From a virus: 36,984 nt of DNA. A model generated the notes under the pieces. The model was given only the letters and a program-made list of their open reading frames with translations, did not search any database and was not told the origin of the DNA. The DNA lies in IMG/VR virus record IMGVR_UViG_3300032296_000975, positions 1 to 36,984 of that record. The stretch is one strand, 5' to 3'. The position numbers and the translations under genes were made by a program. Below are positions 9,248 to 26,600 of this stretch, one piece after another (the stretch's first letter is position 1; each line of letters starts with the position of its first letter).

Positions 9248-10602
9248 CCTTCAAACCACACGACTATCAGGAAGAGGCCCTCGCGCACCTATACAAGGAG
9301 CGCAGGGCAGCCCTGTGGATGCCGATGGGCGGCGGGAAGACCGTAACCACCCTGACGGCTCTAGAGGCCCTCTCCGTGGTCGAGGACGTCTATCCGGCCC
9401 TTGTGCTGGCCCCGCTGCGCGTTGCGCGCTCTACGTGGCCTGACGAGGTCCAGAAGTGGCCGCACCTGTCGCACCTGCGCGTCGGCGTCATCACCGGCAC
9501 GCCTAAGCAGCGTCAAGCGGCGCTTGACACGCCCGCCGACATCTACACGACCAACTATGACAACCTTGTCTGGCTGCGGAAGGCGGTGGGCAACGCATGG
9601 CCCTTTAAGACTGTGATCGCGGATGAGTTCACGCGCCTGAAGTCCTTCCGCTTGCGGCAGGGCGGATCTCGCGCTCGGGCGTTGGGTGAGGTGGCGCACA
9701 CGCACGTCGACCGCTTCATCGGTTTGACAGGTACGCCCGCGCCAAACGGCGTCAAGGATCTGTGGGGCCAGATCTGGTTCCTCGACAAGGGCGAGCGTCT
9801 AGGCCAAAGCTTCTCCGCCTTCGCCATGCGCTGGTTCCGCAAGGGGTATGACGGCTACAGCCTCGTACCCTACGATCACACGCAGACCGAGGTCGAGGAG
9901 CGGCTCAAAGACATCTGCCTGACCGTGCGCGGCCTGCCGGTGGACGAGCCAATCACCAACCCGATATACATCGACCTGCCGCCCGACGCGCGGGACATGT
10001 ACACGGACATGGAGACCGAGATGTTCGCGCAGATTGGTGAGGAGGGTGTCGAGGCCGTCAACGCGGCGGTGCGCACGCAGAAGTGTTTGCAGCTCGCCAA
10101 CGGCGCGATGTACGTGGATGACGAGGGCAACTGGGAGCCAGTTCACGCGGCCAAGCTGGATGCGCTGGAAAGCATCATCGAGGAAGCCAACGGCGCGCCC
10201 GTGCTGGTGGCCTACAATTTCAAGCATGACTTGGCGCGGCTGCGGGATCGCTTTCGTAACGGTCGGGTCTTGGACGCAGACCCTGACACAATCAGGCAGT
10301 GGAACGCTGGGCAGATCCCGATCCTGTTTGCGCACCCTGCGTCGGCAGGCCACGGGTTGAACCTTGCCGACGGGGGCAATATATTGGCCTTCTATGGGGT
10401 CAACTGGAACCTCGAAGAGCATATGCAGATTATTGAGCGCATCGGCCCGATGCGGCAGAAGCAGGCGGGCTATGATCGCCCAGTCTTTATCTACCCTATC
10501 CTCGCCCGCAACACGGTCGATAGTCTCGTTATGCACCGCCTCACGTCCAAGAAGACGATACAAGAGGTTTTGTTGGAAGCACTGAAACGGAGAACGAAAT
10601 GA
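9244..10602 (+). CDS. SNF2-type DEAD-like helicase
   Basis: 452 aa from the GTG at 9244, which overlaps the previous stop; an in-frame ATG at 9160 lies inside the previous gene. Motif I MPMGGGKTVTTL (about 27-38) binds ATP, LVLAPLRVARSTW is motif Ia, and VIADEFTRLK is motif II with DEFT in place of the usual DEAH/DESS. LTGTPAPNG is motif III. The C-terminal RecA lobe has ASAGHGLNLADGGN, then QIIERIGPMRQKQAG (motif VI). Such short SNF2 helicases are standard in phage replication modules and probably remodel forks or displace proteins from DNA. Overlaps the next gene by ATGA. Confidence 0.93.
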   Translation: MTFKPHDYQEEALAHLYKERRAALWMPMGGGKTVTTLTALEALSVVEDVYPALVLAPLRVARSTWPDEVQKWPHLSHLRVGVITGTPKQRQAALDTPADIYTTNYDNLVWLRKAVGNAWPFKTVIADEFTRLKSFRLRQGGSRARALGEVAHTHVDRFIGLTGTPAPNGVKDLWGQIWFLDKGERLGQSFSAFAMRWFRKGYDGYSLVPYDHTQTEVEERLKDICLTVRGLPVDEPITNPIYIDLPPDARDMYTDMETEMFAQIGEEGVEAVNAAVRTQKCLQLANGAMYVDDEGNWEPVHAAKLDALESIIEEANGAPVLVAYNFKHDLARLRDRFRNGRVLDADPDTIRQWNAGQIPILFAHPASAGHGLNLADGGNILAFYGVNWNLEEHMQIIERIGPMRQKQAGYDRPVFIYPILARNTVDSLVMHRLTSKKTIQEVLLEALKRRTK

Positions 10603-10976
10603 GCAAGAGCTTTATATGCAGTTTCTGCGATGTCGAGCACGACACAGTGAAGCTGGCGCTGGACTGCTTCCAGTCGCATGCGACACCCAAGATGCCAGAA
10701 CCGAAGGCCGCCGAGCTGCTGGGCCGCGCTGCGGCGCACATGCACGACCGATCCGCGACCTATGACGAGCCAGAGGGCGAACGGTCAATGGGCAAGATTG
10801 TGACGGCCTTCAACGCCATCACAGGCCGCGACCTGACCGAGAGCGAGGGCTGGATGTTCATGCAGCAGGTCAAACTCGTGCGCCTGTTCACGCGCAGCGA
10901 GTATCACGCCGACAGCGCCGAGGATAACATCGCCTATGCCGCGCTGCTGGCCGAAGCCAAGGGAGAGGGGCGTTGA
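10599..10976 (+). CDS. DUF6378 family protein with N-terminal Cys motif
   Basis: 125 aa. Residues 6-29 (ICSFCDVEHDTVKLALDCFQSH) carry a CxxC followed by C and H, possibly a small zinc site. The rest, AHMHDRSATYDEPEGERSMG, then FNAITGRDLTESEGWMFMQQ and a HADSAEDNIAYAALL end, matches the DUF6378 phage family as I recall it. The all-helical pattern with conserved Glu/Asp and E-D-x-I-A-Y is reminiscent of MazG-like nucleotide pyrophosphohydrolases, which is only an inference. It sits at the end of the replication operon. Confidence 0.82.
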   Translation: MSKSFICSFCDVEHDTVKLALDCFQSHATPKMPEPKAAELLGRAAAHMHDRSATYDEPEGERSMGKIVTAFNAITGRDLTESEGWMFMQQVKLVRLFTRSEYHADSAEDNIAYAALLAEAKGEGR

Positions 10977-11125
10977 GCGAAGATAGTTACGACAAGGTGT
11001 TGGTTGCGTTAAACATGCCGCGCACCCGCGAAAACTATCTGTGGGTTATGTACGACGGCAACATACCAGAAGACTGGGACGAAGAGGCCGAGGAGCAGTT
11101 ACCCCTCGACCTTCGTGTTACTTGA
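10973..11125 (+). CDS. Short phage protein (50 aa), last gene of the plus-strand operon
   Basis: TTG start overlapping the previous stop (TTGA), with a strong GGGAGAGGGG site just upstream, ending at the TGA at 11123-11125. It contains NMPRTRENYLWVMYDGNIPE followed by DWDEEAEEQLP. The pattern 'RENYL...G.PEDWD.E.E.ELP' is familiar from very small proteins in alphaproteobacterial phages, so I consider it real despite its size. Function unknown. Its end overlaps the convergent minus-strand gene by 8 bases. Confidence 0.7.
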   Translation: MSEDSYDKVLVALNMPRTRENYLWVMYDGNIPEDWDEEAEEQLPLDLRVT

Positions 11126-12506
11126 CTTGGAACATGCGGCGCACAGGCTTGCCGAGTAGTTCTGCAATCCGAAGGCGGGCCTCGTCTGGTGAACTGGAAG
11201 TATTCCAGATGTCGGCGATGGCGCGCTTCAACTCAGGTGTTTTGCCCTCTTGGCCCCACAGATCGCGAACGCCTTCCCACGTAGCGGACTGCACTTCACG
11301 CGGCGTGTCGAAGCCCATTTCCTTGGCCGCCAGCGTGTGCATGTCCGATAGCGGGCCGTACAGCCCCTTAGAGCCGGTACGCGCTACGTCCGCTGCAGCG
11401 GGTGGCATTCCTTTTCCAGACGGTCCAAGGCCCATCGCGCGATAGACAATCGGGTCGTTCCCGCCGCCGGGGAAAAGGCTGGCCGCGCCCGCGCTGTGCG
11501 TGTCAATCGTCGAGATCGGCGCTTCGCTGTAAGGGTTGGCGATGTTGTTGTAGAACGACGGAACTTTGCCGCCGCCGAGAAGTTGGGCGTTGATGTTTTC
11601 CATCGACGGGTTGTCCAAGATCGCCAGCGCCTTGCTGACGCTGTCGCCGCTGCCCCACGTCATACCGCCATACGGATCGCCGTATTCGCCCGACAAGTCG
11701 ATCTTGCGGACAACAGGCGAGTTCCGTGTAGCATCGGCCAGAGAGACGCGAGCAAACTTGTCGAACTTGTCGGTCAGTTCCTCATAAGGCATGGACGCGA
11801 TGCGCTCCGCGTACTCGGGACCGCGTGCGGCGACCGCACCGGGAAGCTTCATCGTGTCGATACGGTTCTGGATGTACCGGCGGGCCTCTGAGGGGTCAGT
11901 AGCGAACTTATCGCCGTACATATCCATCAGACGGTCAAGACGAGCTACGTTGATGTCCCAAGGCGTCTGCGGGGAAGTAACCGCAGTCACGCCGTACCCA
12001 GCTTCTGGGGGAAGGCCAGCCCGCGCTGCGGCGCGTTCGGACACCATCTGTGCTGTCGGGTACCAGCCGCGTGCGGCATCGACCTTATCGGCGGGCATGA
12101 GGTCCGTCATGATGAACTTCAGGTTGTCCGCGCCACGGCGAACGCCCTCCTCGTATATCCGTTCGGGACTTGCGCCAGCCATACCGCGCATAAACGGCTC
12201 TTCGGCAAGCATGCCCATATTCTTTTCAAAGGCGGCAGGCGCAGCGCGCAGTGCTTCACCTGTTTGGATAAGAAGCCGCTCGTCTGGGTTGCCTTGGGTC
12301 GCGTAGTTCGGCGCGGTAGGACGCCGTGTGCTCACCATGAAAGGGCTGTCGGCCCCCGCTAGTTGTGCAGGGCGCGTTACTGCTAACGGTTTTGCCTTTG
12401 GGCCCTTAACAGAGGGCACAGGGGGTCTAATCCGGCTGGCTTTTTCTTCAGCTTCCCTAGCTGCTTTCCGCGCTGCCTTAGCGGCGAGACTGCTCAACCT
12501 ACCCAT
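11118..12506 (-). CDS. DUF7178-like late protein sharing an N-terminal tag with its neighbour
   Basis: 462 aa, last gene of the late operon; its ATG overlaps the end of the upstream gene by 8 bases. Residues 1-16, MGRLSSLAAKAARKAA, are identical to the start of the neighbouring ADP-ribosyltransferase-like protein. A basic, Pro-rich linker follows to about 65. The core has GWYPTA (147-152), SPQTPWDIN (168-176), KVPSFYNNI (314-322), TIDTHSA (333-339) and QSATWEGVRDLW (396-407). This order matches, from memory, phage proteins grouped as DUF7178. The 'K-V-x-x-F-x-x-N-I...T-I-D-T-H' part recalls the helix-hairpin-helix glycosylase signature, but I cannot show homology. It may be carried in the virion. 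Confidence 0.7.
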   Translation of the reverse strand: MGRLSSLAAKAARKAAREAEEKASRIRPPVPSVKGPKAKPLAVTRPAQLAGADSPFMVSTRRPTAPNYATQGNPDERLLIQTGEALRAAPAAFEKNMGMLAEEPFMRGMAGASPERIYEEGVRRGADNLKFIMTDLMPADKVDAARGWYPTAQMVSERAAARAGLPPEAGYGVTAVTSPQTPWDINVARLDRLMDMYGDKFATDPSEARRYIQNRIDTMKLPGAVAARGPEYAERIASMPYEELTDKFDKFARVSLADATRNSPVVRKIDLSGEYGDPYGGMTWGSGDSVSKALAILDNPSMENINAQLLGGGKVPSFYNNIANPYSEAPISTIDTHSAGAASLFPGGGNDPIVYRAMGLGPSGKGMPPAAADVARTGSKGLYGPLSDMHTLAAKEMGFDTPREVQSATWEGVRDLWGQEGKTPELKRAIADIWNTSSSPDEARLRIAELLGKPVRRMFQVK

Positions 12507-13518
12507 TGACTTCTACCTTCCCGCCCATGTTGTACTGTTTCATGATTTCTATCAGATCTGGGTTCATAACAACATAGTTTTCAGAGCCACCGCGCGTCAA
12601 TACGCGTGAACTGGGGTCCAGATAACGGATGCCGGAGAGCCCAGCTCCGGTCAGCATGTCGGCCATCGCCTTCGGTTGGATGTCGCTGCGGAAACTGAGC
12701 CGGTTGTAAGCATCGCCACCTGTCATGGGGTACTTGCCGTGCAGCAAATCTTTGTCGTTAATCCCATACCGCTGCAGCAACGAGCCCAACGCGCCCAGCA
12801 CTTGCGGTTGCTCCCGCAGCGGCGTGTCCCACGACAGCATATTGGCAGGATTGACGTCCAGCCCGACTTGGTAGAGCGCGCCGGGGGCGTCCCACTTGCC
12901 CGCGATTTCGCGGTTGAACCAATCAGCCGTGTCTGGCGCGTAGTCACCCGCTGCCATGGCTTTTTCAACGTCCAGCAAGTCGCCGGTGTTGATGATGTTT
13001 TCGAGCAACGCGGCTTGGTCATACAGTGGTCGGCCTGCCGAGATGGGCAGCCGGTCTGCTTTTTCCAACAAGTTAGAGTACACAAGGTTTGCGTCAACGC
13101 CGCCGATGGTTGGATTAGCCACACTGGCAGGCCTGTTGCCTTGGCGGTACGTGCGAGCTATGTTTGGTGCTTCGGTTGTGTAGATGCCGCGCCCGTACAT
13201 TTGCGGCCCAGCCCCAGTACCCAGCTTATCCAGACGGAAGCGACCGAGGGGGAGATCCTCGACAACTTCCAACCCCGGAGAAACGCGCAGGTCCGCAGGC
13301 CTTGGTCGATAAAACTCGAAGCCGTCGTCAACATTGCGGACCTTCACCTCTGGCTCGAAACGGTGCGGCGTGCCGTGGTACACCTCGAGCTTTGGGCGAG
13401 GTGGCTTGGGTCGTGCGGGTGTTGCGGCAACGCGCTCAGTGGCGACCGCAGCCTTGCTCTTAGCGGCCTGCGCTGCCTTCCGCGCAGCTTTAGCAGCGAG
13501 GCTAGAAAGGCGGCCCAC
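12499..13518 (-). CDS. ADP-ribosyltransferase-like (ART-PolyVal type) late protein with N-terminal tag
   Basis: 339 aa, GTG start sharing one base with the upstream TAG. Residues 1-16 are the shared tag MGRLSSLAAKAARKAA, then a basic Ala/Pro linker to about 42. The domain begins VYHGTPHRFEPE (46-57) and continues LGTGAGPQMYGRGIYTTEAP (99-118), ALYQVGLDVNPANMLSWD (214-231), GIRYLDPSSR (286-295) and SENYVVMNPDLIEIM (302-316). This is the layout of the ADP-ribosyltransferase-like domain found in phage 'polyvalent' proteins; His48 and Tyr113 are the likely NAD-site residues. Such proteins are known to be delivered with phage or plasmid DNA. It ends YNMGGKVEVNG, a GG motif seen in two other late proteins. 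Confidence 0.75.
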   Translation of the reverse strand: MGRLSSLAAKAARKAAQAAKSKAAVATERVAATPARPKPPRPKLEVYHGTPHRFEPEVKVRNVDDGFEFYRPRPADLRVSPGLEVVEDLPLGRFRLDKLGTGAGPQMYGRGIYTTEAPNIARTYRQGNRPASVANPTIGGVDANLVYSNLLEKADRLPISAGRPLYDQAALLENIINTGDLLDVEKAMAAGDYAPDTADWFNREIAGKWDAPGALYQVGLDVNPANMLSWDTPLREQPQVLGALGSLLQRYGINDKDLLHGKYPMTGGDAYNRLSFRSDIQPKAMADMLTGAGLSGIRYLDPSSRVLTRGGSENYVVMNPDLIEIMKQYNMGGKVEVNG

Positions 13519-14252
13519 TATTTTAGGCCCTTCTTAGCAACTAAAGCGGCGCTGCGCGCTTTACGGGCAGCGTTACGAACGCCGGGGATTACCGCAAGAG
13601 GCGGCAACACGCTGGCCGCGTCGACCATGCCTTGCATCCGAGCCGCTTCAGCGTTGTCTTCAACGTAGGGATCGAGCATCTGCGAACCCTCGCGCATGCG
13701 GGCGTAATCAGTAAGAGCGGCTGGTGCAGGCATCGCGCCGTAGAACAAGGTGTTAAACACAGCGCCATACGGATCGTCTCTGACCGCCTCGTAACCGCTG
13801 CGGGCGAGGTTACTAACATCCTGCGCGACGCCCATGGGCGTGCTGCGCTGGAAGTAGTTACCAACAGCGCGGAGAGCGCCGGGCGTCTCGCGGACAACAG
13901 CGGCAGGGATTGCTTGCGGTTTATGGAAAGCTGCGGCGTATCGCACTGGCATCTGCACGTCGTCCGGCTTACGAGCGCCGACACCGCCAGCACGGCGGAA
14001 ACGATTTTCGTTCGACCGCACGCCAGCTTCCACGATTGCGCGGTTGTTGCCCAGTGGCTGCAGATTGCGGCGGATGCGCTCAACTTCTTGGGGCGAGCGG
14101 CCTTCGACGTTGCGGGCAATCCACGCAACGGCGTTGGCTGGCGTGATGCCGTAGCGGTCAGCCAGATCCGCCGCAGCGCCGACGAGGTCGTTGCCCCGAC
14201 GGCTGGCCGCCATAACGAGATCATCGTACCAAGAGGTCTGCTTATTAGGCAT
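13518..14252 (-). CDS. Late protein, probable minor virion component
   Basis: 244 aa, ATG overlapping the stop of the 933-residue gene (TAATG). N-terminal helical part SWYDDLVMAASRRGNDLVGA, then an LADRYGITPANAVAWIARN segment, then a Pro/Ala-rich middle, and a basic C-terminus ARKARSAALVAKKGLK. The C-terminal basic Ala/Lys/Arg pattern resembles the tag that starts the next two proteins. No enzymatic motif recognised. It lies between the large internal-virion-like protein and the tagged pair, so a virion role is inferred from position. Confidence 0.65.
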   Translation of the reverse strand: MPNKQTSWYDDLVMAASRRGNDLVGAAADLADRYGITPANAVAWIARNVEGRSPQEVERIRRNLQPLGNNRAIVEAGVRSNENRFRRAGGVGARKPDDVQMPVRYAAAFHKPQAIPAAVVRETPGALRAVGNYFQRSTPMGVAQDVSNLARSGYEAVRDDPYGAVFNTLFYGAMPAPAALTDYARMREGSQMLDPYVEDNAEAARMQGMVDAASVLPPLAVIPGVRNAARKARSAALVAKKGLK

Positions 14253-17053
14253 TAGAACATGCTCGGTGCCATGACGATGCCGCCGCGCGCAAATCCGGGC
14301 TGCTCTTCTTCAACGGGCTGTTCGTTGTCTTCGCCTGTATACATCTTCAAAAGCTCGGTCAGATCCGTTCTGCCCTCCCCCGGAAGACCAACGCGGTACT
14401 GCTCAAGCGACAGCGGCGCGCGCTCTAGCAAGGTAGCCTGCGGTATGGCCGTTGCGGCGTAGCGCGCCATCAGGGCGTTCTTGCGCTCTTCAGGAGTGAC
14501 CGTCGTGAGGGTGAACGGGTCTTGCTGGCTCTGGATGATAGGCTGCATGCCGAAGACGGCGCGCTTTACGCTCGGCGTATACTCCTGTACCAGATTGACT
14601 GCCTTCGGAATGTACTGATCCGCGCCAATCATGCGACCCGCTGCGCCAATACCGCGCTCTGCTGCGCCGTACTTTTCGCCCAGCTCATAGGCCTTCATGC
14701 CGAGGCCGCGAGGCGATAGCGTGGAGGCGAGAAGAAGCTCAGGAGAACCCGTAGCAGCACCCCCAGTCGTCATCATGCTTGGTGCCATGCCACGGGGTTC
14801 AGTGCTCGACAGGTTGCGTCCTGCCAGCATGTCCCCAAGACCCTTGCCGCTTTTCGTGCTTTCCAGCAGTTGGATAACCGAGTTGCCGCGCGGGCCTTTA
14901 CCGGACTGCGCACGCATGAGCTTCGAGAGGGTGGTATCTGCACTCTTTGCACCTGCACCAATCGATGCCTTCACGTCGGCGAGTGTATCACTCGCAAAAC
15001 GATAATCGCCCATAACCTTGGAGTATAGGGGAGCTTTTGCGTTGATGGTGGCGTTGATTGACTTTGCGACATCGTTCGCGACCTTGAACTCAGGCGTACC
15101 GACTTGGTAGCGGCTGCCGATTTCCTTAATCGCGCGCTTCATCGCATCAAAGTCTTCGATGCTGTTCAGACCCTTGTCGAAGAACTCCATGTACTTCGCG
15201 TCGATTTCGTCCCACACGCCGCCAGCACCAGAAATGTCGATGCCTTTATGCCGCCCAACATTGCGGACGCCTTCAATAGCCTGTTCGACATCGTCAAAGG
15301 ACAAGATTTCTGGATTTTGCTTTAGCTTCTTCATGCGGCGCGTATAATCACGGCTGCGGTTCAGATAGAGTTCGCTAAGGGCTGCGTCGGCCTTAGCCAA
15401 GGGGTCGAGAACGTCGCCCGTTTCCGTTGCTTGCTCAACAAACTCCTGAGATCCGCGCTTACCAGCACTGAAGGCCTGCTTGACGTCAGCGCCCGTCGCA
15501 CCAACCATGCGGGCAGGGGCGTTCACAGCGAGCTGTTCCGCCACATTGCCAAGGGCCTTTGCGCCAAGTTTGGTTGTGCCAACCGCCAAGCGTGTTGGGT
15601 CCAACTTACTCGCACCAGTGGCGAAGCCTTCAGCGACACTGGCGAAACCTTCAGCGGCTTTGGCCGCGTTCGATAGTGCGCCAATCTTCCCGACCTTGGA
15701 CGCAAGGCCCGCAGTCTTCGCAAGGATCGTAGCACCCCCCGTTGCGAGGCCCGCGATGTCAGCGGCGATAGACGCTGGGTCTGTCATGAGGGCCTGTTTG
15801 AAGCCCTCAATGCTGCCGTAACGATCAGTGTAGTATTTCTTCAGGGCCTCATACTGGGTGTCGTCTGTGAGGCCAGTCGCGCCGCCAACGACCTTCACAA
15901 GGCTCTCAACCGTGTCAGGCAGATCGACAGTCAGGGCCTTGGCCGTATCGTATGCAAGCTCAAAGGTGCTCGGGATGAAGTTCAGCGCCGCGCCGCCGAG
16001 CACTTCGCCCCAGCCGAGCTCGGTCTTGCCCCCAGCATTGGCTTGAACGCCGAGCATCTTCTGCGCGTCCTTGTCGGCCTGCTCATAGCTAAAGTCCGAA
16101 AGACCTGCGCCATCACTGGTCTGCAAGTTCATGCCAGTGTCGAGAGCATTCTTTACAAAGTTCTCGTCTGGTTCGCGGCCAGTGGCGTTATAGTATGCGC
16201 TGCCCATGAGTGCGGCAAAGTCCGTCGGGTCGAATGTGCCATCCTTCTTGGTCTTCGCAACATACGCCTGAAGCGCCTTCACATCTTCAGGGACGAAGCG
16301 GTAGGACTTGATGTCCGAGCCAAAGGTCTGGATTTCTTCTGGCCCGAGGGCCTCGGCCAAAGCTTCGGGGGAGATGCCGAGGCGGTTGGCGACTGTCAGT
16401 CGGTTCCTGATGACCGTGCCCATGCCGTCCTGAAAGACTTCGTCGCTCGCCGCAGGGTCAATCGCGTCCTCAGTACTGTAGAGCAACTGAAGTTCACGAT
16501 CCGACACGGCACCCAGTGCCGCGCCCGTTGGGCTTTTGGCGCGCATGTCTTGCAGTTTGGTAAAGGCCGTGTTCGCCTGAATGGGTTTGAGAAGCGCAAG
16601 GACGCTGTTTGCCGGAGAGCCGGAGAATACAGACGCTGACGTGATACCCTGCCCGAGGCCGCTTGCGCCGAACATGTCACGGCTAAGCTTGCGTGCCTTA
16701 ACAGCGTTCCTGATTTCTGTCAGAACAAGGTTCTGCGCCTCGATCAGCGCGTCGCCGACCGGACGGTTGCGCATGAGCGCCTTTGCCTTTTCCAACGCCA
16801 TGCGAGCGGCTTCAGTCTTAATCTGCGCCAGCTCCGCGTCAGACTGAGCTTTGCTCGCCTTGGCAGGAAGCAGCGTCCGCGTCTGTTCGGCAGAAGCTGC
16901 CGAGGATGCGGCCCCCGCTTGCTTTTGCCCAATGCCCGCTTCGATTTCCCTTTCTTTCACGGGGGAACCGGGCTGCACAACGATGCTGCGCGAGGGGGAG
17001 CCTTGGCCTCCTGCCTCCTCGTAGCTTTCCCACCAATCTTTCTTTTGAGCCAT
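14252..17053 (-). CDS. Large internal virion / DNA-ejection protein candidate
   Basis: 933 aa, mostly helical and rich in Ala, Gly and Lys. N-terminus MAQKKDWWESYEEAGGQGSP. A long charged helical region spans about 60-125. Alternating hydrophobic and Gly-rich stretches at about 345-490 (ASIAADIAGLATGGATILAK) could insert into membranes. A long helical region with KRAIKEIGSRYQVGTPEFKV follows. It ends PGFARGGIVMAPSMF, carrying the F-A-R-G-G-I-V motif at 921-927. The size, composition and position after the tail hub and before two tagged proteins fit the ejection proteins of podoviruses. There is no sequence motif that proves the function. Confidence 0.7.
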   Translation of the reverse strand: MAQKKDWWESYEEAGGQGSPSRSIVVQPGSPVKEREIEAGIGQKQAGAASSAASAEQTRTLLPAKASKAQSDAELAQIKTEAARMALEKAKALMRNRPVGDALIEAQNLVLTEIRNAVKARKLSRDMFGASGLGQGITSASVFSGSPANSVLALLKPIQANTAFTKLQDMRAKSPTGAALGAVSDRELQLLYSTEDAIDPAASDEVFQDGMGTVIRNRLTVANRLGISPEALAEALGPEEIQTFGSDIKSYRFVPEDVKALQAYVAKTKKDGTFDPTDFAALMGSAYYNATGREPDENFVKNALDTGMNLQTSDGAGLSDFSYEQADKDAQKMLGVQANAGGKTELGWGEVLGGAALNFIPSTFELAYDTAKALTVDLPDTVESLVKVVGGATGLTDDTQYEALKKYYTDRYGSIEGFKQALMTDPASIAADIAGLATGGATILAKTAGLASKVGKIGALSNAAKAAEGFASVAEGFATGASKLDPTRLAVGTTKLGAKALGNVAEQLAVNAPARMVGATGADVKQAFSAGKRGSQEFVEQATETGDVLDPLAKADAALSELYLNRSRDYTRRMKKLKQNPEILSFDDVEQAIEGVRNVGRHKGIDISGAGGVWDEIDAKYMEFFDKGLNSIEDFDAMKRAIKEIGSRYQVGTPEFKVANDVAKSINATINAKAPLYSKVMGDYRFASDTLADVKASIGAGAKSADTTLSKLMRAQSGKGPRGNSVIQLLESTKSGKGLGDMLAGRNLSSTEPRGMAPSMMTTGGAATGSPELLLASTLSPRGLGMKAYELGEKYGAAERGIGAAGRMIGADQYIPKAVNLVQEYTPSVKRAVFGMQPIIQSQQDPFTLTTVTPEERKNALMARYAATAIPQATLLERAPLSLEQYRVGLPGEGRTDLTELLKMYTGEDNEQPVEEEQPGFARGGIVMAPSMF

Positions 17054-17058
17054 AGCTT

Positions 17059-17907
17059 TTACCTTCCGGGGATCGGGCGGGGTGTCTGGTTCGGATCGTC
17101 CACCGCGATGAAGTATCTGATTTCAGGCGGCAGCCTGATCATGTCGGCTTGATTGCGGATGTACCGCGTGTTCTCAAGCGTCGGGCCGTTCCCCGCTGCG
17201 GTACCCTGTTGCCCATTCGGGAAAACAGGCGTGATAGTGACCTTGCCCGACGGATCTTCAGTGCGGATATACTGCGGCTTGTTCGCCGCTGCGCGCGCCT
17301 TGATAACGGCCAAACGGTTCTTGAGCGCCTCGCCTTCCGCGCCCAACTCGCCCGTCTGATACTGCTGCTGAAGCTTCATGAGAGCCTCGGCGCGCTGCTC
17401 TTCAGCGGTGCGCTGCGCTTTGGCAATCTGGCCGAAGACAGGGCTGATGTTCGCCAGTGTGCCCTTAAAGCCGGGCATGCTGGTTGGGCTCAGAAAGGCC
17501 TGAGACATTGCGAAGAGCTGCTCGGACAGGCTGGGTCCGCGATAGTTCTTCTCGATGTAGGCCTTTGCGTCATTGAACTGCTTCAACCGTTGGTCCTGTG
17601 CCTTCTTCATGAAGGCAAGTTGGTCTTGTTCCCAGTCGGTGTAGGTATCAGACTTGGGGCCACCAACGGCAAGGCTCGATCCCTCTTCGCCTGTGTTGTT
17701 TGCGGCGTCCTCATCTGCAACAGCAAAATCTGCCTCGGGGTCCATATCGTCTTCTCCACCGGCGCTCATACCAGAAACGGGCCTAAATTCAACTTCGCTT
17801 GGGCGGACCGCAAGGTCGTACTTGCGCATGAACAAGTCAGCCGCCTCTTGGCCGTCTTGCGCAACCAAGTCATCATAGTTCTGCTGGGTGATAAAAGTTT
17901 TATCCAT
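17059..17907 (-). CDS. Internal virion-type protein, unknown function
   Basis: 282 aa, start overlapping the upstream stop by one base (TAATG). An N-terminal acidic part (1-85) begins MDKTFITQQNYDDLVAQDGQ and contains a stretch rich in Asp, Glu and Ala. A central helical region (about 90-215) has SEQLFAMSQAFLSPTSMPGF, typical of short phage proteins found between tail hub and ejection proteins. It then runs into a C-terminal beta-like segment (QYIRTEDPSGKVTITPVFPN). No signal peptide. Probably a virion or ejection protein. Confidence 0.68.
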   Translation of the reverse strand: MDKTFITQQNYDDLVAQDGQEAADLFMRKYDLAVRPSEVEFRPVSGMSAGGEDDMDPEADFAVADEDAANNTGEEGSSLAVGGPKSDTYTDWEQDQLAFMKKAQDQRLKQFNDAKAYIEKNYRGPSLSEQLFAMSQAFLSPTSMPGFKGTLANISPVFGQIAKAQRTAEEQRAEALMKLQQQYQTGELGAEGEALKNRLAVIKARAAANKPQYIRTEDPSGKVTITPVFPNGQQGTAAGNGPTLENTRYIRNQADMIRLPPEIRYFIAVDDPNQTPRPIPGR

Positions 17908-18980
17908 TAGCCGTAGCCCAGCAACTTGCTGAGGGCGGAGCCTTCCTTAGCGCCAGCCAGCACACCGCCAAGGCCCGACAGAGCGCCTGCGATTGTCGCC
18001 GCAGTCGTTGGCGTGCCCTTATAGTCCACGCCGCTGGGCACGATGCCCTCGTCAATCGTCGCGCCGGGTGCTGCGCCCGCCAGACCACGGAACGTGGCGA
18101 GGGCCTTGTCGATCTGCTCTTGCGGGTAGCCCTGCTGCTTGAGGAAGTCGCTGTAGGCAACGTCAAGGTTCTTCTGGTTGAGAGCCTGCTGCTCTGCGCC
18201 GACGCCCGTGACAGCCTGCGCGCCCTTGAGGCCGAGGGCCTGTTCGGATGCGGCGAGACCGCCGAGCTGCTCTCCGCCTGAAAGGAGGCGTGTGAGGTCG
18301 GAAGTTTGCAGGCCGCCGACAATCTGGCCGAGTTGGCCCATGCGCGCCAGATCAGCCGCAGAGAGACCCGCAGCTTCAGTGAAGCCGCTGCGAAGAGCTT
18401 CTGTCTGCTTGCCGAGGATGTCGGAGCTGGTGTCGCGAATAGCCCGTGCCGTGTCCGTCAGCATTCCTGATGGCGTTCCCGCACCCTCACGAGCGCCGAA
18501 GCCGAGTTGACCTGATTGGATGTAGCGGCCTTCGATAGCGGGGAGAAGGTTCTCGGTCAGGTTGCGTTGGCCCACCTCACCGATCCGCTTGACGACCTGC
18601 TCCGTGTATGGGTTCATGTACTGGCCGATGTTGGCGACTGTGTTTTGTCCTGCCGCCGTCAAATATGGCTGGGCGGTGGGCAGAGCGCCGGGGGTAGCGA
18701 GGGCCGCTTTGGTCACGTCTGTGGCCGCCGTCAGGCCGGGCTGGTACGCCGTGGCCGCCGTGTTGGTCATCCCGAAGCCCTGCTGCTGGCCCGGTGTAAA
18801 CTCCGCAACGCGCGGCATCGGAGCCGTCTCGTATGGGCGGTTCTGCACAGCCTGCTGGTTCGACAGGAGCTGCATAGCGTAGTTGGTGTACCACTCGGGC
18901 AGCACCGTCTGGCTGGTCGTAGACTTGACCGCAGATCCTGCGGGGATCTGGCCGTTGTTCAAGAAGTCGCTGAGCGCCAT
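17907..18980 (-). CDS. Internal virion-type protein, unknown function
   Basis: 357 aa, TAATG overlap with the upstream gene. It has TVLPEWYTNYAMQLLSNQQA near the start, NRPYETAPMPRVAEFTPGQQ, then GQYMNPYTEQVVKRIGEVGQ, and a later NLDVAYSDFLKQQGYPQEQI. The many Gln/Ala/Gly helices and the 'YxxPYxxxPxPRVAxFTPxQ' pattern are familiar from internal virion proteins of marine and other podovirus-like phages. It ends in a Gly/Ala-rich segment (ATIAGALSGLGGVLAG) that could associate with membrane. Probably ejected with the DNA or lining the tail; inferred from family resemblance and position. Confidence 0.72.
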   Translation of the reverse strand: MALSDFLNNGQIPAGSAVKSTTSQTVLPEWYTNYAMQLLSNQQAVQNRPYETAPMPRVAEFTPGQQQGFGMTNTAATAYQPGLTAATDVTKAALATPGALPTAQPYLTAAGQNTVANIGQYMNPYTEQVVKRIGEVGQRNLTENLLPAIEGRYIQSGQLGFGAREGAGTPSGMLTDTARAIRDTSSDILGKQTEALRSGFTEAAGLSAADLARMGQLGQIVGGLQTSDLTRLLSGGEQLGGLAASEQALGLKGAQAVTGVGAEQQALNQKNLDVAYSDFLKQQGYPQEQIDKALATFRGLAGAAPGATIDEGIVPSGVDYKGTPTTAATIAGALSGLGGVLAGAKEGSALSKLLGYG

Positions 18981-21076
18981 TAGATACGTCCTCCTACCAG
19001 ATAACGCTCTGGCCGTTTTGCATTTACACTGAACTTGCCCTTAGCAAGTTTTTGTCCCTTATGCTTGCGCAAATTAACGCGCAGCCGATCCAGAGCTTCG
19101 GCACCCGCCTTGCTCGATCCGTCGCCCAACAAGGCCACGGTCTCTGCGTCCATCACATACTCGCCGTCGGACAGCACCGCAGGGATGTCGTCGCTGCGGC
19201 CAGTGCCGGGGCCGGTGACTGCAAAGGCGTTACGCTTGGGCGAGCCGCCCCGTGCGAAGCGCATATTGTCTACGTCGGGAGCGTACATCGCAGGGGCGCT
19301 AGGCTCGTTTGGAATAGGTGTGGTGATAGGCGCGCTGATAGGTGTGGTGATAGGCGCGCTGACAGGCGCAGAGCCGGGCTGCGACACGTAGTTGAAGAAG
19401 CTCGCCTCGGGGCCGAAGCCGTACCGCGTCCAGTCACGAGGTTGGCCGTTCACTACGGCGAAGTCGGACTGTGGCCGAGCGGCGAAGTTGCCAGTCGCGC
19501 CGGGCATGTTCGGTGCAGGAAGCTTGGCCGAGAACAGCGGGTTGAGCGTCCCCTTGCCGCCGCCCGGATACATAACGCCCGATGAGCCGCCCTTGCCGCC
19601 CTCAATCAGACCACCGATCAGGCCAACGCCTGTGCTGCCGAGGCGCAGATAGTCGGCGATGTCCGAGAGGGACAAGCCTTTAGTCGCCGCGTCGGAGTTC
19701 ATATACGTGTCTAGTTCCTCGTCCGTCATCTCCGCACGGTCGGACTGGTCAGACGTGGCATTCGTAGCGTTAGCGGCGGCGGCTGCTGCGGCAGAGGCGG
19801 CGAAATCGGAAGGCAACAGGTTTGTCGGGGCTGTGACGACGATTTCTTTTTTGGTGTCGTCAACAGGCTGCTCAACAGGCTCCGCAACGGGCGGCTCAAC
19901 GGCGGGCTTGACCGCGTAATCGTTTATCAGGTTTTGCACGAGGGGATTGACTGCAAAAGAACTGGCACCCGGCAGGCCCGTTTGCGCCGTGACAACGATG
20001 TTGGCGGCGGGCTGCTCTACAGGCTGCTCTACAGGCTGCTCTACAGGCTGCTCTACAGGCTGCTCTAAGGGCTTGACCGCGTAATCGTTGATTAGGTTCT
20101 GCACGAGAGGATCGACGGCGAAAGAACTGGCACCCGGCAAACGGCCTGTGACCCTGATTTCCGCCAGAGGATCAACAGGAGGTTCAGCAGGCGGTTCAGC
20201 AATCAATCTATCAAGCGTCGACTGCGGCGGCGTCGCCGAAGGGTCCCACGCCGGATAACTGTTCGCGATGGAGTTCGCGAGGGACGATGAAAGAGCGTTG
20301 CCCGCTATAGAGGAGGCGAGAGGCCGTATCCCACTAACGATAATTTGATCGGCAGCAGCGTTTGTCAGCGCGCCTGTTCCAGCACCTCCTATCGCGGGAA
20401 TGCTCCCCACGGCTTTTGACACCCCCTGAGCAATGTCTCCCACAACGGGAACAGCGTTTACAGCTTTGTCGAGATAGCCGCCAATCGGAGTGCCCTTCAG
20501 AAGGCCAGCCGTGGCGGCAGAAAGGCCCGCAGATTTGGCGATGTCGCCAATGCTTTTGCCTTGCAGGGCACCAGAGGCGGCGGAGCCGAGGGCGCTTGCG
20601 GCCATCGTCGCGCCTACTTTACCAAGGGCTTGGCCGAGGAAACCTGAACCCGGGAGAAGCGCATTCGCCAAAATCGGCAAGCCGATGTCAAGGATGGTGC
20701 CGACAGGGCTCTTGTTGACTTTCTCGCGGGCAACATCATTCCACCGCGTGCCACCCACGCTGCCGTCGGAATTTATCGTGCGGTCGCCAGTCTGGATCAT
20801 CCAGCCAGCCTTGTTACCTTTTTCGTTTGTTATAGATTGACCAAGGGCGACAGCTTGCCGAGCCGCTTCAGGGCCGACGCCGCTGAACAGCACGTTGCCC
20901 TTGTTGTCGATGATGCGCACTTCTTGCTCGTCACGGACGCGGAACGTGTTGTCTTGCCCGAAGCCAGTCGCGTTCCCCTTGTTGGAGAGGGACGACGTGA
21001 TAAGCGCGCCTTGAGGCATCATAAGATCTGGACGTCCGCGACCAGCGTCAAGTCCGGGTGTATCACCAAATGGCAT
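18980..21076 (-). CDS. Large repeat-containing internal virion protein candidate
   Basis: 698 aa, one-base overlap with both neighbours. About 1-60 is beta-like (FRVRDEQEVRIIDNKGNVLF). Gly/Ala-rich hydrophobic stretches at about 130-200 could meet membranes. A Pro-rich region at about 280-430 holds (VEQP) repeats and two copies of an LPGASSFAV-LVQNLINDYAVKP unit, with EIRVTG, NIVVTA and EIVVTA boxes. The C-terminal domain, with RSDDIPAVLSDGEYVMDAET and KRPERYLVGGRI, is a conserved end found on many phage virion proteins. The last residues form the Y-L-V-G-G-R-I motif. Likely an internal or tail-lumen protein. Confidence 0.75.
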   Translation of the reverse strand: MPFGDTPGLDAGRGRPDLMMPQGALITSSLSNKGNATGFGQDNTFRVRDEQEVRIIDNKGNVLFSGVGPEAARQAVALGQSITNEKGNKAGWMIQTGDRTINSDGSVGGTRWNDVAREKVNKSPVGTILDIGLPILANALLPGSGFLGQALGKVGATMAASALGSAASGALQGKSIGDIAKSAGLSAATAGLLKGTPIGGYLDKAVNAVPVVGDIAQGVSKAVGSIPAIGGAGTGALTNAAADQIIVSGIRPLASSIAGNALSSSLANSIANSYPAWDPSATPPQSTLDRLIAEPPAEPPVDPLAEIRVTGRLPGASSFAVDPLVQNLINDYAVKPLEQPVEQPVEQPVEQPVEQPAANIVVTAQTGLPGASSFAVNPLVQNLINDYAVKPAVEPPVAEPVEQPVDDTKKEIVVTAPTNLLPSDFAASAAAAAAANATNATSDQSDRAEMTDEELDTYMNSDAATKGLSLSDIADYLRLGSTGVGLIGGLIEGGKGGSSGVMYPGGGKGTLNPLFSAKLPAPNMPGATGNFAARPQSDFAVVNGQPRDWTRYGFGPEASFFNYVSQPGSAPVSAPITTPISAPITTPIPNEPSAPAMYAPDVDNMRFARGGSPKRNAFAVTGPGTGRSDDIPAVLSDGEYVMDAETVALLGDGSSKAGAEALDRLRVNLRKHKGQKLAKGKFSVNAKRPERYLVGGRI
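19904..20138. repeat. Two 70-bp direct repeat copies inside the 698-residue gene
   Basis: Segments 19904-19973 and 20069-20138 match at 63 of 70 positions by eye. They encode the duplicated LPGASSFAV(D/N)P-LVQNLINDYAVKP unit. The 165-base offset keeps the frame, so the gene grew by in-frame duplication. The tandem 12-bp array lies between the copies. Confidence 0.85.
20011..20070. repeat. Five 12-bp tandem repeats encoding VEQP units
   Basis: The unit GCTGCTCTACAG on the plus strand is repeated four times exactly, and a fifth copy ends AAGG. On the coding strand this gives repeated Val-Glu-Gln-Pro in the Pro-rich linker. Perfect 12-bp copies suggest recent slippage, and the length probably varies between relatives. 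Confidence 0.9.
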
Positions 21077-23087: not shown

Positions 23088-23650
23088 TAGAATACGCTTG
23101 CCTCAAGGTCGATTGTTGCGGTGTCGAGTACGGTGCCCGTGCCGATCTTACGTATTTGTACGGTAAACTGACAGAGCTTGCTGTTACCAGTACCAAACTC
23201 TTCAACGTACCAGTTCCTCGTAGTAGACAACGCAAGCCACGTCCCAGTGCCGCTACCACCCGACAGTGTACCCGATGTTAGGGTTACCAGTGCTTCATAG
23301 TTACTGGATTGGTTTGTAGGCGTACACCACTGTTCAAGGTTTGTTGGGTTGATGCCCCCCGCCTGTACGGACTGCTCGACCTGCCCTCCGGCTGTGAGGA
23401 AGTAGTAAGCGTAAGCGTCACTAACACCAGACCCAGATATATACTGATCGGTAATGGAAATAACGACGTTGCTCTTGCCGTAGAAGTTGGTCGGCACGAT
23501 GATAGCGCCAGACGCAACGCCCGCCAGCGTGCGGACGTCGGTGTCGTTCAGCGAAACCGTGGCGGTAGCGGATTTGCCCAGTTCGAGGTTGATAGACTGC
23601 CCCGCAGTGCTGCCGCCCAAGCTGATTGGGCCTGAAGAGTTGAGCGTCAT
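23087..23650 (-). CDS. Fibre-associated structural protein
   Basis: 187 aa, one-base overlap with both neighbours. It starts MTLNSSGPISLGGSTAGQSI and continues NLELGKSATATVSLNDTDVR with GVASGAIIVPTNFYGKSN. This N-terminal block (1-65) is common on phage and prophage tail proteins, where it is followed by variable beta-rich ends, here about 65-187. No signal peptide. It lies between the fibre and the tail hub and is probably a tail tip or fibre-base component. Confidence 0.78.
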   Translation of the reverse strand: MTLNSSGPISLGGSTAGQSINLELGKSATATVSLNDTDVRTLAGVASGAIIVPTNFYGKSNVVISITDQYISGSGVSDAYAYYFLTAGGQVEQSVQAGGINPTNLEQWCTPTNQSSNYEALVTLTSGTLSGGSGTGTWLALSTTRNWYVEEFGTGNSKLCQFTVQIRKIGTGTVLDTATIDLEASVF

Positions 23651-26600
23651 TATTTAACTCCCCGTAGCTCGTCCAGTTCTGCCTTTAACTCTGCAATGGC
23701 CGCGAATGCCACTGCGACCAGTTTCTCGTAATCAACAGCCAGTGTGCCATCATCGCGAGTGCGAACGGCCAGCGGGAACATTTCTTGCACGTCCTGCGCG
23801 ATGACGCCGAAGTCGCTCTTGCGGACGAAATAGCCGTCCTCACCGCCATGCTCTGCGATGTACGCGTCGGTCCAGTCGAACGTCTTGCCGCCTACCGAAG
23901 ATACGATGCCGAGGGCGTTTTCAATCGGCTGCACGTTCTCCTTGAGACGCGCGTCCGACGAATAGTAGGCCGTGACGTTATTGGTCGCGCGGATCTCGCC
24001 CGCCGTACCAGAACCCGCAGTGCCGACGCCAAGGCTGTTGACCTGATAGTTGTTGCTTGTGTTGAGCGCGTTTGCCGTGGTCGCCGTCGTTGCGTTCGTC
24101 GCATTCGTCGCGTTGGTAGCGTTTGTTGCATTGGTGGCTGTTGTAGCGGTTGTAGCGGAGGTAGCTGTTGTAGCCGACGTTGCCGTCGCCGCGTTGCCGC
24201 TGATGTTAATACCCCAAGTGCCGGATGCGCCTGTGCCGTCTGCTTTAGGAGCACCAACGGTGCTGTAGTCAATCGTGCGTGCTGCCGACCCGTTAAACGT
24301 CGTGCCCGCCGCTGCGCCACCTGTGTTGGTGAAGGTTACCGCATTGGTGACCGATCCAGCCGTAGTCGCTGAGGTAGCCGACCCAGCAGTCGTAGCCGAG
24401 GTGGCAGTCGCCGCGTTGCCGTTGATGCTTATGCTCCAAGTGCCCGACGCGCCGGAACCAGTGGCCGAGGGAACGCTAAGGTTAGACCGAGCAGTTGCCG
24501 CATCGGTTGCGCCTGTGCCGCCGCTGGTGACAGGCAGAGTGCCTGAGACCTGTGTGGTCAGGCTGACGCCAGACAACGTGCCGCCGAGCGTCAGGTTACC
24601 CGAGGAGGTGACGGTGCCCGTGAGCGTGATGCCGTTGACCGATCCAGTACCGCCAACTGAGGTGACGGTGCCGGTGGTGGAGCTGGTGCCCGCGCCGATG
24701 GCCGAGCGGAACGACGCCGCGTCGAGAGCCGAGACCGTGTTGTCTGCGTTGAAGCGGGGGAACGTAACGGCACTCGGGTTGGCGAGGGTGAACATGCTGC
24801 TGCCGATGGCCGTCGCGCCAAGGTTGGTACGCGCACCTCCAGCCGTCGTCGATGCCGTGCCGCCCTGTCCTATGCTCAATGCGGTCGTCAGGCCCGATAG
24901 AGCCGTGATGTCGCTGTTTGCACCCGAGGCAGCCGCCCCAAGGCTGCTGCGTGCGCCCGCAGCCGTCGAGGAGGCTGTGCCGCCCTGCGCGATGCTCAGA
25001 GGCGTGCTGAGGCCCGATAGAGACGTGATGTCGCTGTTAGCGCCAGAGGCAGCCGCGCCGAGGTTCAGACGCGCACCAGAGGCCGTAGCGCCGCCTGTGC
25101 CGCCATTCGTGACGGCCAGAGTGCCGCCAAGCGTCAGCGTGCCGCTTCCAGTGACAGGGCCACCAGAGAAAGAAAGACCCGTCGTGCCGCCCGAGGCGTC
25201 GACTGAGGTAACCGTACCGCCGCCAGCCGTCGACGTAATCGTGATTGAGCCGCCGCCGTTGGTGATGCTGATGCCCGAGCCAGCCGTCAGGGTTGCCTTG
25301 GTCAGCGTGTTGCCGGTGCTGTTGCCGATGAGCAACTGCCCGTCGGTGTACGAGGTCTGGCCCGTGCCGCCGTTGGCGACAGGTAGCGCAGTGCCTGACA
25401 GCGAGACGGCGAGCGTGCCTGAAGTCGTGATAGGAGATCCGGTGACGGACAGGAACGAGGGAACGGTCAGCCCAACGCTGGTCACCGAGCCTGAACCCGT
25501 GCCGACGCCCACGCCGTTGATGAAGAGACCCGTCGCGTTGATCGTGCCTGTGCCCTGCGCGCCACCCGTCGGTGCGCCGACCTGCACGCCGCCAGAGGCA
25601 GTTAGCGCGGTGATGTCGCTGTTGCTGCCCGACTGGGCCGCGCTGAGGTTAGAGCGCGCACCTGCGGCTGTCGTAGATCCTGTGCCGCCCTGCGCAACGG
25701 TCAAGGCCGTTGTGAGGCCCGTGATCGAGGTGATGTCGCTATTCGCGCCAGACGCTGCCGCCGCGATGGCGGAGCGGGCAGCAGCCGTTGTGGATGCCGT
25801 AAAGACGCCGGTGCCGATGCCCGTGCCGCCGAGGTTGGTCAGCGCGGAGCCTGCGGTGGTCGCGCCGGTGCCGCCCTGTGAGATGCCGACCACGCCTGCG
25901 AATGCCGCCGCAGTCGTTGCGGTGATGATGTCCGTGCCGTCGGAATAGTAGATACCCGTCGTGTTCTGCGTCACAACAACAGGGGATGAGCTGCCCGACA
26001 CGCGGACAGAGAGGGTGAAGGCACCCGTCGTCTGGTTATTAATCCAGTACTGCTGCACGGTGGCAGGCACGACGACAGTCACGTTGCCGCTCAGTGTGCC
26101 TGTGAACTTGTAGGCAATCCGGTTCAGTTCAGATCCGCTCAGCGTGTACGTGCCTGTAGTGACGGCGACAGACGTGTAGTCGAAGGCAAAGACCGCCTGC
26201 TGGCCGAGGCCGATGGTGTACCACTGGATGCCGTCGGTCACGATGCTGGCGCTGTCGCCCGGCTGCAAGGTGAGCGTGCTGCTGCCATTGATCAGCTCTG
26301 CGCCAGATGGGTCGACGACAAGGTCGCCCGTGCCGCTGTTGCGCAGGTTGATGAACCAGCCGTCAGTCGCCGAGACGGAAGTTGGCAAGTTCAACGTGCC
26401 CAGTGCGCCTGTCCAGACAAAAGTCTTAGCGCGGTCGCCTGTGGTCGTCGTGACTGGCGTTGAGGAGAAATCGACAACCTCGGCGTTCTGCGCGAGAGTT
26501 GAGCCGAGGGCAACGAGGCCGGGGCCTGCAAGCGCAGAGGCTTGCGCCTGTGCGGTAGCCGCGCCGTAACGGAAGACGCGCCACGTTCCTGCGACCGTTG

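Follow-up and report, generated by a model that had tools for sequence, protein, structure and literature searches.

Two neighbouring late genes of an uncultured phage, here called gene A and gene B, encode proteins with unrelated bodies that begin with the same 16 residues, and we consider it probable that this shared N-terminal peptide is a portable virion-loading and ejection address carried by interchangeable injected effectors. Both genes lie in a stretch of 36,984 nucleotides (nt), hereafter the window, that spans positions 1 to 36,984 of the IMG/VR virus record IMGVR_UViG_3300032296_000975. The peptide, referred to below as the tag, has stayed identical through silent divergence, heads about ten families of protein bodies, exchanges its bodies, occurs in arrays of adjacent genes directly behind ejection genes, and in phage DNA is restricted to the starts of open reading frames (ORFs).

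Gene A (12499-13518, minus strand; 339 amino acids [aa]) starts with GTG, and gene B (11118-12506, minus strand; 462 aa, consisting of the tag and a DUF7178 body) starts with ATG. The tag copies occupy codons 1-16 of each gene, at 13471..13518 and 12459..12506 on the minus strand, and both read MGRLSSLAAKAARKAA, the GTG of gene A being read as Met. All 16 residues are identical and 11 of the 16 codons are unlike in the window DNA, so the coordinates, residues and codon count given in an earlier note on this DNA were correct. Within codons 2-16, 10 codons differ silently and none non-silently, with 14 of 45 bases changed. Under a simple neutral model, in which about 29% of random single substitutions in the tag stretch would be silent, 14 silent changes out of 14 have a P of about 3e-8, and when 14 substitutions were placed at random, the 15 residues retained 6.8 identities on average and never more than 12 in 5000 simulations. 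The tags of the cargo pair in another contig (L036) likewise show nine silent and no non-silent differing codons. Because only silent codon changes are seen in both pairs, the comparison supports selection acting on the tag as a peptide, the explanation that the note had preferred to recent DNA copying; recent gene duplication as the origin of the tag is ruled out by 14 differing bases that change no residue. The two proteins are also otherwise dissimilar, as had been claimed: blastp of body A against body B gave nothing better than E=4, and a profile comparison aligned seven columns, all in the tag itself. The start codons of both genes are credible because each overlaps the preceding stop codon (TAGTG at the junction of gene A with gene C, the gene directly upstream, and ATGGGTAG at the junction of genes A and B) and because homologues of gene A in L036, L050 and L068 have ATG at the same codon as its GTG. 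In the window's record, the tag was found in genes A and B only.

Searching for N-terminal matches elsewhere, as the note had proposed, revealed a tag that recurs on many unlike bodies. A generalised tag pattern gave 26 matches in 19 IMG/VR stretches (18 contigs), and every one of the 26 begins an ORF in frame (ORF length 96-626 aa, 1-53 open codons in front), three of these ORFs extending beyond the sequence end. The same pattern gave 11 matches in 257 Gb of cellular genomes, three of them in ORFs longer than 100 aa with 69, 118 and 198 open codons ahead and the other eight in shorter frames. None of the cellular matches thus heads an ORF of more than 100 aa without at least 69 open codons in front of it, which rules out a generic protein start, the outcome that was to count against the tag. 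A position profile of the tag gave 36 of 1182 ORFs (19 contigs) a score of at least 33.7 bits, one ORF a score of 5-8 bits and no ORF a score of 8-12 bits. Twenty-one of these 36 ORFs supplied the tags from which the profile was built and match by construction; the 15 outside the training set are mostly near-duplicates, with three new kinds (the second ORF of L075, the first of L081 and the second of L083). The count retains near-duplicate contigs and omits overlapping loci (L002, L039, L047, L048, L065-L067, L071-L073 and L085) as well as cellular and named-phage loci (L086-L100). The 21 tags all have G2, A8, A12, A15 and A16, 20 of them have K10 and 20 have A11, and S or T stands at position 5 and L or F at position 7; this invariance is partly imposed because the search pattern demanded most of these residues. 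In L050 (reverse), a third cargo-like ORF of 174 aa at 12620-13144 starts MPRGVGLAVRAARTAAAEAKKRAA and ends FAVGGRVAGSKKRPTY; with 7.9 bits, it is a candidate for a divergent tag.

Tagged genes tend to stand side by side. Two or three consecutive tagged ORFs are present in 15 of the 19 contigs, and in L080 the array is followed by a fourth tagged gene whose tag is shorter by one residue. In the four single-tag contigs, either the tagged ORF is cut by the sequence end (L049, L054 and L074) or its upstream neighbour is apparently cut by the contig start (L079). Each array contig was found through at least one tag, the second tag lying outside the search criterion, and since some contigs are near-duplicates (L075/L076/L077/L082 and L070/L078), the arrays amount to 11 distinct ones.

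Tags and bodies have been exchanged between phages. The ADP-ribosyltransferase-like body of L037 is 88% identical to that of L036 and 77% identical to that of the window, yet its tag reads MSWQKDAAKLIGEFGK..., and its downstream neighbour, with a different body, begins MSWQKDLAKLAGEYGK...; the L037b body recurs in L068 (65% identical) behind a lysine- and alanine-rich (K/A) tag, the type found in the window. The second tag is unrelated to the first, spans about 45 residues (MSWQKDxAKLxGEYGKxxVxRLxGILP...) and is carried by two neighbouring cargo genes (L037, 4893-7477) or by a single one (L061-L064). The tag is accordingly not one universal sequence, in disagreement with what the earlier note implied, and a single tag for all relatives is ruled out by L037, L061-L064 and the existence of untagged cargo. 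When neighbouring ORFs were compared automatically in the loci collected up to that point, four pairs with common N-termini emerged, all of them cargo pairs. Comparison of the DNA in 30-nt windows placed the breakpoints of homology at the flanks of the tag, exactly before or just after it. Gene B and L036c have an identity of 0.87-0.97 from 120 nt before to 60 nt after the start, then 0.73, then 0.37-0.63; gene A and L036b have 0.17-0.60 before the start codon and 0.90-1.0 over the 210 nt after it; gene A and L049a agree at 0.67-1.0 over the end of gene C and at 0.80-0.97 over the tag, and the identity of the body drops to 0.5-0.7. In the gene B/L036c and gene A/L049a pairs, the body has thus been swapped and the N-terminus kept. 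Among 28 dereplicated proteins, obtained by removing the near-duplicates L074a, L076a, L077a, L078a, L078b and L080c from 34, tag similarity was 0.77 for different bodies in the same genome, 0.48 for the same body in different genomes and 0.45 otherwise, with a permutation P of 0.00025 for the genome effect and 0.27 for the body effect; such P values are indicative because the proteins are not independent. Over all tags together, the tag type goes with the phage rather than with the body.

The body of gene A (12499..13389, minus strand) is ADP-ribosyltransferase-like, with the motifs YHGTPH ... YGRGIYTTE ... ENYVVMNP. Gene A and L050b gave no match to Pfam, including ART-PolyVal (PF18760), and body A aligns to parts of phage proteins with ART-PolyVal (L040 at 32.0 bits, cut-off 31.2; L042 at 30.0; L046 at 19.9). 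Because these aligned proteins match ART-PolyVal in Pfam, gene A probably encodes an ADP-ribosyltransferase of the polyvalent-protein type. The same body (gene A, 12499-13518) is matched by PHROG 873, whose label 'endolysin' is possibly borrowed from another domain of a multidomain protein. The gene 5 product of Sulfitobacter phage phiGT1 also resembles body A, and we claim no proteomic support from it. Among solved structures, a profile of the A family had no match at E<=1. Gene B matches DUF7178 (PF23802) at 58.4 bits, the Pfam cut-off being 27, with its best stretch at residues 140-195. Homologues of both bodies sit within far larger (giant) phage proteins; genes A and B hold one body apiece and so lack the two or more effector domains that characterise polyvalent proteins.

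Blastp of the 34 tagged bodies, four of them incomplete (L049a, L054a, L068b and L074a), gave 11 components, the eleventh being L074a alone, a fragment identical to L081a at 96 of 96 residues; as this fragment belongs with L081a, there are about ten body families. The body types include the ADP-ribosyltransferase-like one, DUF7178, PcfJ (L069a, L080b and L080c) and ART-PolyVal (L070, 70.3 bits), the last group having in addition a weak ParB-like part (PHROG E 0.0035; Pfam E 0.04, below the cut-off). No Pfam match at E<=0.01 was obtained for L036c, L037a, L049a, L050b, L054a, L070b, L075a, L081a and L084a; a Pfam scan gave no match for L069b and L083a and only sub-threshold matches for L037b and L050c, that of L037b to DUF7178 being weak (E 0.02, below the cut-off). 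A tagged protein of 162 aa in L084 (reverse, 2049-2537) looks GNAT acetyltransferase-like by eye and has no Pfam match. The L036c, L050c/L069c and L037b/L068b groups merge in one blastp component, and this common component together with the weak DUF7178 match of L037b suggests that some of the bodies in the gene B slot may form one deep superfamily; hhalign of the DUF7178 alignment against two of these groups covered only 27 and 21 columns.

The location of genes A and B at the end of an internal-virion or ejection operon, another claim of the earlier note, was borne out by the neighbouring genes. Upstream of genes C, A and B in the same operon, all on the minus strand, are genes for a 698-aa protein (18980..21076) ending in RYLVGGRI, a 357-aa protein (17907..18980) matching PHROG 4287 'DNA ejection protein', a 282-aa protein (17059..17907) lying between the 357- and 933-aa genes and having no confident family match, and a 933-aa protein of the ejection block (14252..17053) that ends in FARGGIVMAPSMF and whose close relatives mark the slot elsewhere. 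The 357-aa protein is 49.5% identical over residues 2-312 to gene 065c of Caulobacter phage RW, and the 933-aa protein is a partial-length relative of an annotated 'ejection protein' of Pseudanabaena phage Pan3. Gene C (13518..14252, minus strand; 244 aa, no tag) follows, its stop overlapping the start of gene A, and a convergent DUF6378 gene (10599..10976, plus strand) borders the slot at the other side. Caulobacter phages RW, RLK, KcrB and GB2A are the closest cultured relatives that were found, and in RW the slot for genes C, A and B is empty, convergent genes beginning 114 bp after the ejection genes; since the tagged proteins lie downstream and can be missing in this way, they are accessory. 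Five contigs whose 933-aa gene is 99% identical carry a single 696-aa protein in the slot, and two contigs whose 933-aa gene is 98% identical carry a 617-aa protein with a DUF7178 body. In L038 (2434-4398), a gene like that at 10599-10976 of the window shares its strand with the ADP-ribosyltransferase-like gene and is followed by a truncated MSWQKD start; this arrangement suggests a rearranged or chimeric contig.

Relatives of gene C are 93% to 64% identical in L049, L050, L068 and L069 and 30% identical in L054. A profile built from the window and the first four of these contigs recognised the gene C module as a free-standing protein in L054, L075 and L077 (E about 1e-9), as the C-terminal part of the ejection protein in L070, L078, L080, L081, L083 and L084 (E 3e-73 to 2e-82), and ahead of the cargo, as a fusion, in L004, L005 and L057 (E 2e-11 to 7e-9). 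For L037 and L061, which carry MSWQKD tags, the ejection proteins gave no confident match. The module stands directly upstream of K/A-tagged genes in 14 of 14 contigs (the window, L049, L050, L054, L068, L069, L070, L075, L077, L078, L080, L081, L083 and L084, the sample excluding L036, L074, L076, L079 and L082), five of which (the window, L049, L050, L068 and L069) built the profile, and of MSWQKD genes in 0 of 2. Gene C is a candidate for an adaptor that reads the K/A tag, a role that fits because the module precedes K/A tags and not MSWQKD tags in these contigs. The idea that untagged cargo is always fused to gene C was rejected, the profile search supporting it for the L004, L005 and L057 types only; no confident match was obtained in L001, L003, L006, L014, L020 and L019 (in the last, for its 726-aa protein). 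L003 has a weak match to the N-terminus of L004 (E 6e-5), and L014 has 18 of 19 start residues in common with a 170-aa gene C relative of L054. The best internal scores of the tag profile were 15.8-20.9 bits in L004, L005, L010 and L024 (shuffle maximum for L005, 13.5) and reached 13.4 bits in L003 (shuffle maximum 9.3); those of L001, L014, L020 and L057 did not exceed their own shuffle maxima. These scores are suggestive only of the tag being a remnant of the K/A segment behind the fused gene C module.

The virion-address reading needs the fewest extra assumptions because it accounts at once for selection on the peptide, its presence on unrelated neighbouring late genes, a tag that follows the phage, and exchangeable genes beside ejection genes. 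Genes A and B, and the two to four such genes in relatives, would be interchangeable effectors encoded alongside the ejection proteins; their tag would dock the cargo inside the head on a partner specific to the phage, for which the gene C module and the ejection-protein complex are the likeliest candidates, and the docked cargo would be packaged and then exit with the DNA. Once delivered, bodies of the ADP-ribosyltransferase-like, DUF7178, PcfJ, and ParB-like plus ART (for ADP-ribosyltransferase) types would act on functions or defences of the new host.

Several results weigh against this reading. The 24 close gene B loci (L001-L024) comprise 17 with other, longer N-termini, five with tag-like starts and two whose N-terminus is not visible, so 17 of the 22 close relatives with a visible N-terminus are without the tag; the expectation that relatives of gene B share it holds for the five and fails for the 17. 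Untagged cargo without a confidently recognised gene C module exists (L001, L003, L006, L014 and L020), and in L019 a second cargo gene has a tag-like start, yet no module was recognised upstream. When K/A tags alone are compared (25 proteins), similarity is 0.76 within a genome, 0.70 for the same body and 0.57 for neither, with significance for both the genome effect (P 0.0025) and the body effect (P 0.002); once two divergent tags are removed, leaving 23 proteins, the values become 0.84, 0.73 and 0.65, the genome effect being reached in 0 of 4000 permutations and the body effect having a P of 0.014. AlphaFold models of A and B, made from shallow alignments, were poor, with a mean predicted local distance difference test (pLDDT) score of 56 and 40, and a PDB fold search with the model of A gave nothing at E<=0.001. 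No virion proteome or packaging experiment was found for any carrier.

The physical character of the tag bears on two other explanations. The description of the peptide as a basic amphipathic helix fits the window tag, whose amphipathicity lies at the 99.5th percentile of shuffles, and does not extend to all tags: of nine K/A tags, four (L070a, L080b, L075a and L083a) show no notable hydrophobic moment, and MSWQKD tags are not basic. The tag might instead be a short nucleic-acid-binding K/A helix tail whose charge keeps late proteins attached to phage DNA, no specific virion receptor being involved; the net charge of the first 30 residues, +2 to +9 in 31 of 31 K/A-tagged or tag-like proteins, and the K/A-rich low-complexity linkers that occur also within untagged relatives would suit such a tail. 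MSWQKD tags, which occupy the same position, have a net charge of 0 to -2 over the first 30 residues in three of three proteins and therefore argue against plain DNA binding, and all 21 tags retain G2, S/T5, L/F7 and A8, more than charge would require, the search pattern having demanded most of them; we regard this explanation as unlikely. An amphipathic helix such as that of the window could also work after injection, directing the protein to a membrane or target in the new host cell; we give this little credence, as the unremarkable moment of four of the nine K/A tags and the tendency of the tag type, over all tags, to track the phage rather than the body speak against it.

Two further explanations were considered. 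The tag might assemble neighbouring late proteins into a complex in the producing cell, such as a toxin/regulator or lysis-timing complex, and indeed tagged genes adjoin in all 15 contigs that show a second one, with translational overlap in the window; the position directly behind ejection proteins and body types that are known from virion-delivered polyvalent proteins, as described in PMC5512222, make this improbable. The breakpoints of homology at the borders of the tag could alternatively mark a recombination joint, that is, repeated DNA at gene starts that serves cargo swapping and has the peptide as its by-product. Selection for DNA homology would act in the opposite direction to what is seen, 14 of 45 bases differing without a residue change, which renders this explanation very improbable, and a joint is in any case compatible with the address reading, of which it may be a consequence.

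A more specific form of the virion-address reading, which we offer tentatively and consider on balance doubtful, is an effector magazine: one to four exchangeable effectors behind the ejection genes, each bearing the address peptide of its phage and docked by a mobile gene C adaptor, with MSWQKD serving phages that have no recognisable gene C. The adaptor would be free-standing in the window, L049, L050, L068, L069, L054, L075 and L077, would form the end of the ejection protein in L070, L078, L080, L081, L083 and L084, and would be fused ahead of a single cargo in the L004, L005 and L057 types, in which a tag would be needless. As L037 and L061 are without recognisable gene C and use MSWQKD, cargo moving between the groups would take the tag of its recipient. 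If true, this would amount to a code of addresses and receptors by which short-tailed phages deliver proteins. Because related cargo is found in genomes of both tag types, there is a natural test of which virion protein reads the tag. A further tag family, unrelated to that of the T4-like phages and present in uncultured phages, would help to find injected effectors: in the loci examined, the tag profile alone parts cargo genes from other ORFs with no borderline cases (36 of 1182), most of them without a Pfam match. Such a tag would also provide a short address with which to load proteins into a phage head.

At the other end of the tagged proteins, GG occurs within the last 40 residues in 28 of 30 complete ones (the exceptions being gene B and L019b), compared with 190 of 596 ORFs generally, tagged ones included, and 29% of internal windows. 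A stricter motif, hydrophobic-GG-[LIVKRMF], is found in 21 of the 30, often before a short basic tail. Such sites lie at 12499-12540, 14252-14300 and 18980-19010 of the window and also in L050, L068, L069, L070 and L080-L084; the 591-, 698-, 357- and 933-aa late proteins of the window have GG near their ends too. The motif may be a second, C-terminal, common signal. Elsewhere in the window, two large tail-fibre genes (23650-26928 and 33190-36681; 1092 and 1163 aa) match partly the same PHROG tail-fibre families at their C-termini.

To our knowledge, shared N-terminal packaging tags on unrelated proteins have been described for T4-like phages, P1 having a single mapped one. Among the papers listed from the open-access literature, covered through titles and the starts of abstracts and with subscription papers outside that scope, none described the present tag. 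In T-even phages, the internal proteins are reported to have highly diverse bodies in which only the capsid-targeting sequence (CTS) is conserved (PMC3012670), and an N-terminal signal is reported to direct the packaging of T4-type internal proteins (PMC12373910). As a positive control, the adjacent T4 genes ipII and ipIII share 12 of 16 N-terminal residues, each sharing 1 of 16 with its other neighbour. The analogy with capsid-targeting sequences drawn in the earlier note is appropriate, since the tagged genes, like those for IPI, IPII and IPIII, combine unrelated and exchanged bodies with a common short N-terminus. The T4 CTS differs in having no sequence similarity to the tags (anchored scores of 2-3 for genes A and B and -17 to -14 for L037a, compared with 49 for ipII against ipIII), and it belongs to a different kind of phage; at least two tag types occur here, and packaging is a prediction. 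T4-type prohead proteases cleave at the motif [LI]xE, which a motif scan, as distinct from a cleavage assay, located in only 5 of 34 tagged N-termini (first 45 residues). For the anti-restriction protein DarB of phage P1, the N-terminal 30 residues are reported to suffice to send a reporter into the head (PMC9024508); its authors found no consensus among Dar N-termini, whereas neighbouring cargo here share their start exactly. The N-terminal propeptides of head proteins of the giant phage SPN3US are proposed to target inner-head and ejection proteins into the prohead, and gp53 and gp54 resemble our pair in their identical 15-residue start (PMC5694885); according to the same source, these propeptides are much longer, are cleaved by the prohead protease and share their start on paralogues rather than on unrelated bodies. 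The ejection proteins of P22-like and other podoviruses resemble the present system in operon context and through the relatives of the 357- and 933-aa neighbours, and differ in that the tagged proteins are downstream and accessory. Polyvalent proteins of phages and conjugative elements, which are predicted to be packaged and injected (PMC5512222), share ART and ParB-like domains with the tagged bodies, and homologues of bodies A and B lie within giant phage proteins; here, unlike in polyvalent proteins, the domains are distributed over separate, smaller proteins that are tagged individually.

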